Origin: an uncultured Bacteroidales bacterium
GTDB taxonomy: Bacteria > Bacteroidota > Bacteroidia > Bacteroidales > Muribaculaceae
Length of the DNA: 39,300 bases
Assembly (NCBI GenBank): GCA_947175535.1
Contig: CAMWNF010000009.1
Coordinates: forward strand, 1-39,300
Reading direction: 5' to 3'
In this document: positions 1 through 2,342 of the stretch, piece by piece
How positions within the stretch are numbered: the first letter of the stretch is position 1
How the letters are laid out: each line of letters opens with the position of its first letter
Position numbers and translations under genes: made by a program
The notes under the pieces: generated by a model
Database searches by the model: none
Told to the model about the DNA's origin: nothing
What the model saw: the letters and a program-made list of their open reading frames with translations, nothing else

Positions 1-639
1 TTCAGAGCCGTTTTGCCTTTCGAAAGAAAACATTATGTCTGTCGGTTCGGAGTTGTCCTCACCATTACCGAAAAACAGCTTGCCGTGCATACCGGAAAGT
101 GCTCCGTCAATCGAACTAACAAGATGACTGTTTTTCACATGCTTAATCTCTACGGAGTAGCGGCAGACAGCTTCCGCCATTGGGACAACAATTTTGTTAT
201 CCTTTATGGCTATCTCGTCGATATAGGAAATCCATAGCGAATCAGGAGCAAAGCAAAGAGGGCGATCAGTCTTTGACGAAAGACCCTGCTGCTCGTATGA
301 GTCACGCAAGGCTATTTCAAAATCTTCAGCTCTGCCTGAATTGTTGATTTTCACAGTATTATTATCAGAATTAACGGCAATGGCAGTATAAGCGTCGGGC
401 ACAACGAGAATTTTGCCGCCGTTTTTATCCTCGAATTCGTGACGACGATAACCATCTTTTGAGAAAAGATAGAGGCTCATAGTCTGCGGATTAGCGTCGG
501 GACACTCTGACCAATCGAAGACTACGTCGACAGGTATGCGGTCGTGGTTGTGATCGAAGCACAATTCCTGTTGATTGTAACAAGATGAGAGGGGCAGCAT
601 TGCTAAAGATGTGATAACCATGATTATAGTAGATTTCAT
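1..639 (-). CDS. DUF5119 domain lipoprotein (3' end cut by window edge)
   Basis: Reading leftward from an ATG at 639, 213 codons stay open to the window edge, so the C-terminus is missing. The product starts MKSTIIMVITSLAML and has a lipobox ending in Cys20 (LPLSSC), so it should be an outer-membrane-directed lipoprotein. The stretch after the lipobox (YNQQELCFDHNH, then VFDWSECPDANPQTMSLYLF) matches my memory of DUF5119, a family found beside DUF3575 and Mfa-type fimbrilin genes in Bacteroidales. The start overlaps the stop of the upstream DUF3575 gene as ATGA and is preceded by an unusually good Shine-Dalgarno (GGAGGTGA at 650-643), so translation is probably coupled. A role in fimbria or surface-structure assembly is inferred from the family neighbourhood only. 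Confidence 0.8.
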   Translation of the reverse strand, partial: MKSTIIMVITSLAMLPLSSCYNQQELCFDHNHDRIPVDVVFDWSECPDANPQTMSLYLFSKDGYRRHEFEDKNGGKILVVPDAYTAIAVNSDNNTVKINNSGRAEDFEIALRDSYEQQGLSSKTDRPLCFAPDSLWISYIDEIAIKDNKIVVPMAEAVCRYSVEIKHVKNSHLVSSIDGALSGMHGKLFFGNGEDNSEPTDIMFSFERQNGSE

Positions 640-1886
640 CGCTCACCTCCCTTTCTTATTATATATATGAGTGATATATCTGCCTTTACCGGTCCGAAGT
701 AACGACGCTGACGGGTCGACTCCCATACACTATGACCGTCAATAATTCGATATGTATTATAGCGTCCTGCCATATAACCTACGCTCAATGAAAAATCGAG
801 ACTTAACCGAGACGAAATTTTCATAGCGTAGCCATACTCCGCACCAAGTGTCCATGAAGGATTATCGAGGAAAGATGCACCCGAGCCTCCACTAAGCTGT
901 CCTTTCCCTCCGAAACTGAAATCATAACGGAACAGACTGCCGATGAGACCGACGTGATGGCCACGCATGTTACTGCCTGAAAAATACCTTTTAGCTGACA
1001 ATTCGACTCCTTGTATTCGCCAATAGCGACCACGTTCACGCTTACTCCACCACGCATACATTCCCGAAACGCCGAGCGACCATCCATGACCGACTCCGAG
1101 TTCAAAGCCCAGATTGGGCACAGCAAATGCATCATAAAGCAGATTAGTTCGGACAGCTAAATCGAACGGCTTTGATTCTTCCGAATGTAACACTTTTTCA
1201 TTTCGAACCGGGTGTGCATCAATAAGGTAATTGCGGTGAGATACGAGATTGTATTTCGTCGGAGAGACAGTCGATATCTCCGGCAGAGGTCTATTATAGA
1301 TAATTGTAATATGCGATACCCTTAACTGCGGAAATATTGTATCAAGCATGCATCGCCACGCTTCTCCGTCGCCGAGTCTACGAAGTCTGAGTTTACGGCT
1401 ATCTGTCACCACGCCGTCGCCTATAACCCACTCAGGTGTGTCTCTTATGATTGATACCGCTTCGTCTGCATAAGGGATTTCAGATTGGCTAAGTCTGGAT
1501 GTCAGGCCGTCCCAGTCAATGCCGATTGATGAAACACTAAGAGAGATGCTGTCGGGATCAAACAATCCGGCAAGCAATGTGACTGCTGTTTTGGAGCGAT
1601 CTTCCGACAACTGTTTGTTAAATAAAGTATTGCCTTCGGGCGAAGCGCTTGAAACAATATTTATCGCGTGGACGCTGCCTCTACCGTCTGCAAGTTTTTG
1701 CAAATTTTCCAGAGTTCTTGCATTACTATCCAAGTCGGCATCGAGTACCGCACTTCCGATGGGATAATGAAGACTTACACGCAGAGAATCAACAGCAAAT
1801 ACCTTATCAGTTGTACATAACAACAATGCTGTCACGACAATTGCCTGTCTGACAAACCACAAAACTATGTCTTTCGAAAAATGCAA
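636..1886 (-). CDS. DUF3575 domain outer-membrane protein with OmpA-like N-terminal half
   Basis: This 416-residue protein has a hydrophobic N-terminal segment (about residues 8-31, ending VFA) that looks like a signal peptide. The middle has an OmpA-like pattern (SSASPEG...N..LSEDRS, about residues 59-84). From about residue 245 it has the DUF3575 signature (FDLAVRTNLLYDAFAVPNLGFELG) and alternating aromatic strands typical of a small beta-barrel. It lies directly upstream of the DUF5119 lipoprotein with a 4-base ATGA overlap, the usual order in Bacteroidales fimbria-like operons. The start is doubtful: the only upstream start in frame is TTG at 1886, immediately preceded by an in-frame TAG. 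ATGs at 1911 and 1905 behind an AGGAG are in a different frame. Either TTG is used or there is a frameshift near the N-terminus. Confidence 0.78.
   Translation of the reverse strand: MHFSKDIVLWFVRQAIVVTALLLCTTDKVFAVDSLRVSLHYPIGSAVLDADLDSNARTLENLQKLADGRGSVHAINIVSSASPEGNTLFNKQLSEDRSKTAVTLLAGLFDPDSISLSVSSIGIDWDGLTSRLSQSEIPYADEAVSIIRDTPEWVIGDGVVTDSRKLRLRRLGDGEAWRCMLDTIFPQLRVSHITIIYNRPLPEISTVSPTKYNLVSHRNYLIDAHPVRNEKVLHSEESKPFDLAVRTNLLYDAFAVPNLGFELGVGHGWSLGVSGMYAWWSKRERGRYWRIQGVELSAKRYFSGSNMRGHHVGLIGSLFRYDFSFGGKGQLSGGSGASFLDNPSWTLGAEYGYAMKISSRLSLDFSLSVGYMAGRYNTYRIIDGHSVWESTRQRRYFGPVKADISLIYIIRKGGER
643..650 (-). promoter_or_regulatory. Strong Shine-Dalgarno for the DUF5119 gene
   Basis: GGAGGTGA lies inside the last codons of the DUF3575 gene, with GGAGG ending six bases before the ATG at 639. 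Most starts in this window have no SD, as expected for Bacteroidetes, so this one stands out. It fits re-initiation at an ATGA overlap. Confidence 0.6.
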
Positions 1887-1936
1887 CTAAGCGCAGTTTT
1901 ATCATGTCCATCGGCTCCTGATGAAACGTTAATACT

Positions 1937-1971
1937 AAAAACTGCCTTCGCTAAAACAGAAGCGTGAAGCC
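1937..1971 (-). terminator. Intrinsic terminator of the structured RNA
   Basis: On the minus strand GCTT-CA-CGCT, an eight-base loop and AGCG-AAG-GC form a bulged hairpin followed by TTTTT. It lies between the rod-like RNA and the DUF3575 gene, about 50 bases before that gene's start. It could end an independent RNA or act as an attenuator for the operon downstream. Confidence 0.6.
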
Positions 1972-2305
1972 GATTGTTGCTCGCTCCACCGTATGAGGCC
2001 TTCGCATTGCCCAGTCAAACAGAACGAGCAACGGACCCCACGCCGTATGATACGTCCGACTACGCCCGCAGCTCGCGCTGTAAACGCAGGGGAATATAAT
2101 CATACCCATGAGCATCATCGTTGCATGGTCTCCTGTTTGACTGAAAGTTGCGAAGTTTCATACGGTCAGAAACCAAGCGCCAATAACGCTTTTTTAACAT
2201 GTCCACTCCCAATGGTACAAGCCGTTTGAGAGTAACACCCCACCCTTATTAAATCCGTCCTTGTCCCTCCGGACAATCTTCCACAGAAACGGCGTGGGTG
2301 AGATT
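1937..2305 (-). ncRNA. Candidate structured ncRNA with long rod-like fold (6S-like shape)
   Basis: No protein gene fits this stretch. On the minus strand nested complementary segments form one extended rod: 2158-2166 with 1988-1996 (9 bp), 2150-2155 with 2000-2005 (6 bp), 2133-2143 with 2012-2022 (11 bp), 2119-2124 with 2028-2033 (6 bp) and 2099-2105 with 2045-2051 (7 bp). It is capped by CAGC-GCGA-GCTG, a GNRA-type tetraloop. An internal loop of roughly 11 by 13 bases lies near the middle. The rod is about 180 nt, the size and shape of 6S RNA. The upstream part has further hairpins (2261-2276; 2287-2293 with 2221-2227). A consensus promoter precedes it and a terminator follows. I found no RNase P, tmRNA or SRP landmarks. 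Relation to the Bacteroidales-1 (6S-like) family is possible but not shown. Confidence 0.55.
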
Positions 2306-2311
2306 TGATTA

Positions 2312-2342
2312 CAAAATTATAATGATTTTTTGTTTTTACAAG
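2312..2342 (-). promoter_or_regulatory. Promoter for the structured RNA
   Basis: Minus strand: CTTG at 2342-2339, a 19-base spacer and TAATTTTG at 2319-2312, matching the Bacteroidetes housekeeping consensus TTTG-N19-TAnnTTTG. Transcription would begin near 2305. Confidence 0.65.

Follow-up and report, generated by a model that had tools for sequence, protein, structure and literature searches.

6S RNA binds RNA polymerase as a mimic of an open promoter. Bacteroidales-1/6S (RF01693) resembles the element described here in occurring in Bacteroidales and in having a rod on a 180-nt scale, whereas it occupies one separate locus, and the element is multi-copy, lies mostly before genes, and has another sequence and fold. 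Attenuator leaders and riboswitches, as a general kind, share with the element a position as 5′ leader, an intricate conserved fold, a stem followed by a U-run, and a pseudoknot near the start codon; the element differs from them in that its genes have no evident shared pathway, that it is apparently portable, and that it matched no Rfam riboswitch family. OLE, ROOL and GOLLD, as they are presented in PMC12286853, are comparable as ornate RNAs with covarying loop-loop contacts and a function that is little understood or undefined, whereas the element is smaller, lies before genes, and was confined to Bacteroidales in the samples searched. The HMP2 candidates described in PMC8040213 include short palindromic Bacteroidetes motifs, of which some are described as terminators, in the neighbourhood of TPR or radical SAM genes; compared by these descriptions alone, they differ in size, at 40-132 bp each, and may include fragments of the element family. 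The Bacteroides-2 and GUCCY-hairpin motifs are listed in PMC2864571 as Bacteroidetes candidate RNAs, there without an Rfam number, and by that listing have Bacteroidetes origin in common with the element. Literature searches, covering open-licence papers, found no description of the element family, and the leader RNA family is apparently undescribed so far.

The window, meaning the whole stretch of DNA analysed, comprises 39,300 nucleotides of contig CAMWNF010000009.1 (assembly GCA_947175535.1) from an uncultured bacterium of the Muribaculaceae. The element lies on its minus strand, with annotated features extending to about 1909, slightly past the interval 1937 to 2342 of a preliminary description, which had proposed a structured RNA of no assigned family with a 6S-like rod or, failing that, a leader of the operon that follows. 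Taken together, the comparisons below identify the element almost certainly as a conserved structured leader.

Identity and distribution of the family

The minus strand of 1930-2350 had a predicted fold energy of -153.7 kcal/mol; shuffled sequences averaged -120.7 kcal/mol (z = -6.1), and none of 100 shuffles equalled it. No family of Rfam 15 reached its gathering score on the window element, and a search of 1750-2450 at E-values up to 10 returned below-threshold, chance-like matches, none of them to 6S or Bacteroidales-1; elements of 20 other loci gave no Rfam match, riboswitch families included. With compensatory change found across homologues, where the preliminary description had proposed to look for it, its view of a structured RNA outside known families was borne out. 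The 6S-like identity was rejected. A divergent 6S RNA might be expected to show a rod with internal loops, a promoter motif and a terminator-like end, as the element does, yet the genome has its own 6S (RF01693) as a single match elsewhere (G000:C66:1789-1978, 126.7 bits), no 6S model matched at the locus, and the window copy is accompanied by 13 further strong copies, so that we give this explanation practically no weight. The Rfam matches in the window lay elsewhere only: a tRNA, and BTncRNA_FopS (RF04319; 22777-22844, minus strand, 59.3 bits), a second, known Bacteroidetes small RNA within the window.

When 49 genomes of the genus were searched at the DNA level, 28 proved to contain pieces of the element, frequently more than one each; for the most part these came from the same two arms. 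31 copies were aligned, and a covariance model built from their 3′ half was used for genome searches, matching 45 of the 49 genus genomes at E-values up to 0.01. In a sample of the order, 66 of 393 genomes and 37 of 206 genera were matched; nine candidates were scored per genome, which makes the per-genome counts, and perhaps the tally, lower bounds. A phylum sample of 395 genomes gave three matches, all from the same order and one from the source genome itself, and thus no relative outside Bacteroidales in that sample. The source genome carries 14 strong copies (E at most 5e-10), window copy included. Weaker opposite-strand matches at the same places are palindrome echoes, and the genus counts per genome (up to 20) are somewhat inflated.

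A 26-base pattern matched at least 119 stretches in a named sequence collection, and among the matches listed (80 titles), 75 carry names from Bacteroidales or Bacteroidia groups, in a few cases by the known placement of the name. Records of Segatella copri, Bacteroides sp. GM023 and Palleniella muris are among the matches. Four of the listed titles are of Firmicutes type (L122, L134, L160 and L163: Firmicutes, Lachnospiraceae or Eubacteriales), and are probably mis-binned Bacteroidales contigs. Altogether, 231 loci gave 229 elements, 196 distinct cores, and 188 cores with flanks, which were used for the family statistics below.

Covariation and fold of the two arms

Covariation was analysed on the 188 copies by APC-corrected mutual information, without imposing a structure. 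The top pairs fell in helix a (2166-2158/1996-1988, z up to 49), then in helix c (2142-2133/2022-2013, up to 28) and helix b (2155-2149/2006-2000, up to 20), the three helices of the rod (1988..2166), which has the strongest covariation in the family. Px and T ranked lower, at about 13, and M, S1 and H at only 6-7; pairs fitting no helix appear from z of about 10 downwards (columns 66-136 and 2-137, for instance), and for M, S1 and H these ranks are therefore no proof on their own.

As a control, pairing between each copy's own strands was compared with pairing after strands were exchanged between copies, a comparison that ignores phylogeny, at an effective sequence number of 179 of 188 (85% identity). 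The resulting z-scores were 38.8 for a, 26.4 for c, 18.9 for b, 15.5 for H, 11.3 for Px, 10.1 for T, 8.7 for M and 8.5 for K, and within Arm 1 they were 14.0 for P2 and 11.2 for hp. P2b and the inner hairpin had no covariation support (z = -0.5 and -0.2), the inner hairpin being too invariant for the comparison. Sliding the partner columns clearly lowered pairing, though M and T kept 0.73 and 0.72 at one slide. Across the 31 aligned sequences, T and H were 97.6% paired (T 97.9%), and double changes were seen at 9 of their 18 pairs.

In the window copy, the 5′ domain (2190..2305) lacks the GCAGAAGCC/GGCUUCUGC pair; in many relatives this domain carries GCAGAAGCC, able to pair with GGCUUCUGC adjoining stem T (helix Z). 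Arm 1 (2112..2189), as called by RNAalifold, consists of P2 (GCGUU.. from 2189, with GAUGAUGC ending at 2112), Px (2173-2165/about 2135-2128) and the small hairpin hp (GAAA/UUUC, 2159-2156/2146-2143, loop CUUCGCAAC). Arm 2 (1962..2044) consists of stem T (2043-2034/1971-1962), helix H (2032-2022/1986-1976) and the inner hairpin (GGGC/GCCU, 2012-1996, loop AAUGCGAAG). Between the arms, helix M (2105-2097/2052-2045, span 2045..2105) encloses an apical hairpin, CAGC-GCGA-GCTG (2080-2069), whose GNRA cap is seen directly in the sequence; a GNRA loop on a 4-bp stem occurs in 62 of the 188 copies, against 16 of 188 after shuffling. The nested rod of the preliminary description, made up of a, b and c together with K and M, is present, with four helices located, among them a further one at 2124-2119/2033-2028, and with the GNRA cap.

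RNAalifold, unprompted, returned two arms from the 31-copy alignment, P2-Px-hp and T-H-inner. Helix b (7 bp) is complementarity between 9-nt loops of the two arms, and helices a and c are pairing between internal-loop strands of the two arms. In the consensus, the helices abut or are separated by 1-4 nt, with few insertions at these joints (10th-90th percentile within 2 nt), so that all helices except K may coexist. The overlap of helices a, b and c with Px, hp, the inner hairpin and H is limited to one or two border nucleotides, and T overlaps by few nucleotides with S1 and with Z. The single fold suggested by this spacing may consist of a pair of four-way junctions that a and c connect and that the kissing loop closes. 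Strict mutual exclusion of the rod and Px/H was dropped when this possible joint fold emerged from RNAalifold and the helix spacing.

Folding restricted to nested structures, without pseudoknots, favoured the rod over the local arms, in a forced Px+H+T+M state, in 161 of 187 copies (median about 13 kcal/mol), yielded a, b and c without Px and H, and gave T a probability near 0. Since nested folding prefers the rod, a two-state switch is the main rival on the fold: the rod (a, b, c) would let transcription go on, and the local set (Px, H, T) would terminate it in the style of a classical attenuator, which is compatible with attenuation. Both sets covary, and their order fits an anti-antiterminator, antiterminator and terminator; a, b and c, however, barely overlap Px, hp, the inner hairpin and H and abut them, as they would in one fold. 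Helix K (GCAACG/CGUUGC) would compete with H, which a switch would accommodate, and besides its swapped-strand score, GCAAAC occurs in 11 of 14 copies with GTTTGC against 14 of 100 copies with CGTTGC. Against this, K is absent from the 80 top unbiased pairs, and a three-way comparison of 52 non-consensus copies gave little gain (of 5 positions, 4.37 were paired in K and 4.23 in H, against 4.12 when the partners were taken from the consensus), with 12 of the 52 fully paired in both K and H, partly as an alignment effect. No gain was seen when 57 unusual copies were scanned (5.47 against 5.47); at least 16 of these were misanchored. The case for helix K is weak on these comparisons, and we consider the two-state switch a serious contender that nonetheless falls short of even odds.

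The two-junction fold can be compared with the double-crossover architecture of RNA. At well below even odds, we also propose a double-crossover-like RNA, in which arm strands would pair as a and c between near-perfect four-way junctions (Px-a-H-c and a-hp-c-inner), b would be a kissing loop, and the inter-arm sequences would act as locus-specific keys, making the whole a transplantable gene-control cassette, possibly with pairing between molecules from the same locus. Across the 13 copies of the source genome compared, helix a was 95% paired with itself, against 60% across copies.

Ends of the leader and position before genes

The window copy has a -7 box, TAATTTTG, of the TAnnTTTG type at 2312..2319 (minus strand), which would place the transcription start near 2305. 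TAnnTTTG, which we take to be the Bacteroidetes-type promoter, was found 50-150 nt upstream of the conserved GCG (P1) in 125 of 159 anchored copies, with 9.2 expected from shuffles, and a sigma-70 scan of the window found three sites, elsewhere, against 1.4 expected. The promoter of the preliminary description is present and is of the Bacteroidetes type. The predicted leader length has a median of 315 nt (286-366 nt, 5th-95th percentile, 123 copies).

At the 3′ end, as in an attenuator, the conserved GC-rich stem T is followed at once by a U-run, with a same-strand gene downstream. In the window copy the run, TTCTGTTTT (1953..1961), is interrupted, with 6 U in the first 8; it is stronger in most relatives, and at least 6 U occur in the first 8 nt after T in 136 of 152 copies. 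T encloses H and its loop is far longer than in textbook terminators, and a scan for small-loop terminators called no hairpin at T in the window or in one other copy (L011). The terminator seen in the preliminary description holds as a long-loop stem with an interrupted U-run, and not as a hairpin that the small-loop scan would call.

Beyond the U-run, the window copy has a 3′ hairpin, S2 (CATC/GATG, 1909..1923), whose stem was read from the sequence by eye; its loop AGGAGCC could form a pseudoknot, helix S1, with GGCUUC in the 3′ strand of T. This pairing covaries in the family: own strands paired at 6.37 of 7 positions against 5.66 for swapped strands (z = 16.5, 152 copies), perfect 7-mers occurred in 79 of 152 copies against 1 of 152 after shuffling, and at least 6 of 7 positions paired in 131 of 152 against 47 shuffled. 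The S1 partner beyond the U-run lies within a hairpin loop in the copies looked at by eye. Conservation of S1 near the start codon in most copies would suit a mainly translational regulator, in which T has a purely structural role and the accessibility of the start codon depends on the S1/S2 pseudoknot and the U-rich stretch; the U-run placed right after a GC-rich stem in so many copies is hard to explain by translation alone, and such a regulator seems to us an unlikely account of the whole.

A same-strand ORF starts at most 300 nt past the model end in 183 of 188 copies, and 25-100 nt past it in 142 of 188, against 28 of 188 in a divergent-side control. TAnnTTTG lies between the U-run and the start codon in 1 of 160 copies, with 4.5 expected, and because this motif is almost absent there, the gene seems dependent on the leader's promoter. 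In the window, the first gene after the leader encodes a DUF3575 protein (636..1886, minus strand, 416 aa, TTG start; Pfam PF12099, 1.6e-33), its start at 1886 lying 71 nt past the end of the model match, and the second encodes a DUF5119 protein (1..639, minus strand; Pfam PF17145, 9.7e-40), cut by the window end, which is also the contig end. The TTG codon is the first listed start of the DUF3575 gene, and a short ATG frame, seen by eye, overlaps it just upstream in another frame. DUF3575 genes follow the leader at 69-71 nt in three records, the window and two others (L134 and L175, 69 and 71 nt).

An RNA with its own promoter motif and a terminator-like end, and with homology borders near the U-run (below), could also be an independent small RNA, about 300 nt long and with its end at the U-run, its neighbouring gene being incidental. 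We think this improbable, given that most copies are followed at much the same distance by a gene on the same strand, that no second promoter precedes this gene, and that a conserved pairing partner lies past the U-run. Most copies agree in the order of promoter, structure, U-run, pseudoknot and gene start, and the distances between these are alike; the leader or attenuator of the DUF3575-DUF5119 operon, which the preliminary description had held as its alternative, is for this reason a better reading than 6S.

Downstream genes, portability and a model of control

The 186 first genes fall into 122 sequence clusters, of which 92 are singletons, and no shared pathway, such as would be expected of genes behind a riboswitch, was evident among them. 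By a crude hydrophobicity rule, 92 of 149 first genes have signal-like N-termini, against 35 of 129 upstream controls. LRR_5 (BspA type) was found in 13 of the 149 scanned first genes and is not among the 25 families listed for the 129 upstream control proteins, and thus occurs in at most one of them (worst-case p 0.002). An LRR-containing cluster is represented among the first three genes of 49 of 186 copies (single linkage; many loci are too short for three genes). By these sequence comparisons, the downstream genes are mostly unrelated, often encode surface proteins, and are enriched for exported and BspA-type LRR proteins.

At three loci (L021, L119 and L218), the first genes encode short related proteins with RREFFK..(A/V)KGALPILGA; the next ORF of L021 has a CxxxCxxC motif, presumably radical SAM-like, and the second ORF of L119 is homologous to it, so that a modified-peptide operon perhaps lies behind the leader at these loci. 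Enrichment for anti-phage genes is not claimed, as control proteins match PADLOC about as broadly (152 families in 129 upstream control proteins, 138 in 149 first-gene proteins). Single anti-phage-like cases behind the leader are SspB (L120), a HaeIII-type nuclease (L171) and HKD-Snf2 (L154).

Leaders up to 90% identical precede unrelated first genes. Two copies (L115 and L140, the latter with an uncertain gene call) share 329 bp at 95% identity from promoter to U-run, with unrelated flanks on both sides, perhaps because this unit was transferred recently or underwent gene conversion. Among 260 pairs with leader identity above 0.72 and no gene homology, the 3′ border of similarity lay near the U-run (quartiles 0 and +12), and in nine pairs similarity extended beyond -360, so that it seldom passes the promoter. 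Leader identity is independent of gene homology, with a median of 0.604 in 324 pairs with homologous genes against a background of 0.598. These sharp homology borders could in part result from selection that acts only on the leader, and the very similar leader pairs suggest real transfer or gene conversion.

The many copies, and the unrelated flanks of the 95% identical pair, are also what a mobile DNA repeat with a palindrome and no RNA function would leave. Compensatory change in many helices and the constant orientation and position before genes speak against such a repeat; viral contigs held no exact match of one 26-base pattern, and plasmids no blastn match of one copy (L011). We regard it as very improbable. 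A mobile or phage origin was not supported by these two empty searches and one weak partial match in a fecal record, namely 83 nt at 76.7% identity (L235, 2516-2598) in MT839469, an unverified 4.3-kb fecal 'phage' scaffold.

By comparison, the family, most helices (through compensatory change), the promoter motif, the U-run, the S1 pairing, the position before genes and the diversity of those genes are established. Transcription as one RNA, termination, control of read-through, the direction of the effect and the signal are inferred. Our main reading, to which we assign a probability of roughly 55%, is that the element is a portable cis-acting leader, present in many copies, and gates the gene behind it, with attenuation at T and the U-run as the most likely means and a further effect of S1 at the start codon. 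The TAnnTTTG promoter would start a transcript of about 315 nt (median), which would fold into the two hairpin arms P2-Px-hp and T-H-inner; the arms would then pair with each other through the inter-arm helices a, b and c, leaving a GC-rich stem and U-run as the 3′ end of the RNA. T and the U-run would terminate part of the transcripts, and the arm-arm fold, under the influence of a ligand, protein or condition, would set how frequently RNA polymerase reads through into the gene. In the read-through mRNA, the 3′ strand of T, once freed, could instead pair with the loop of S2, immediately ahead of the start codon, and might thereby influence translation. S1 is no classical antiterminator, as its 3′ strand sits past the U-run, and formation of T requires pseudoknots or kinetics, given its probability near 0 in nested folding. 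Against attenuation stand the long-loop T that the scan did not call, the lack of an evident shared gene pathway, and the interrupted U-run of the window copy.

The family was found in 37 of 206 genera sampled from the order, frequently with numerous copies in one genome, and has no match in Rfam 15. Its most clearly covarying helices are those between the arms, which makes its architecture an RNA question open to experiment. The proteins that the leader family probably controls in common gut bacteria are accessory and for the most part exported, and if the family has spread between unrelated genes, as it appears to have done, this would represent an unusual route to a regulon.
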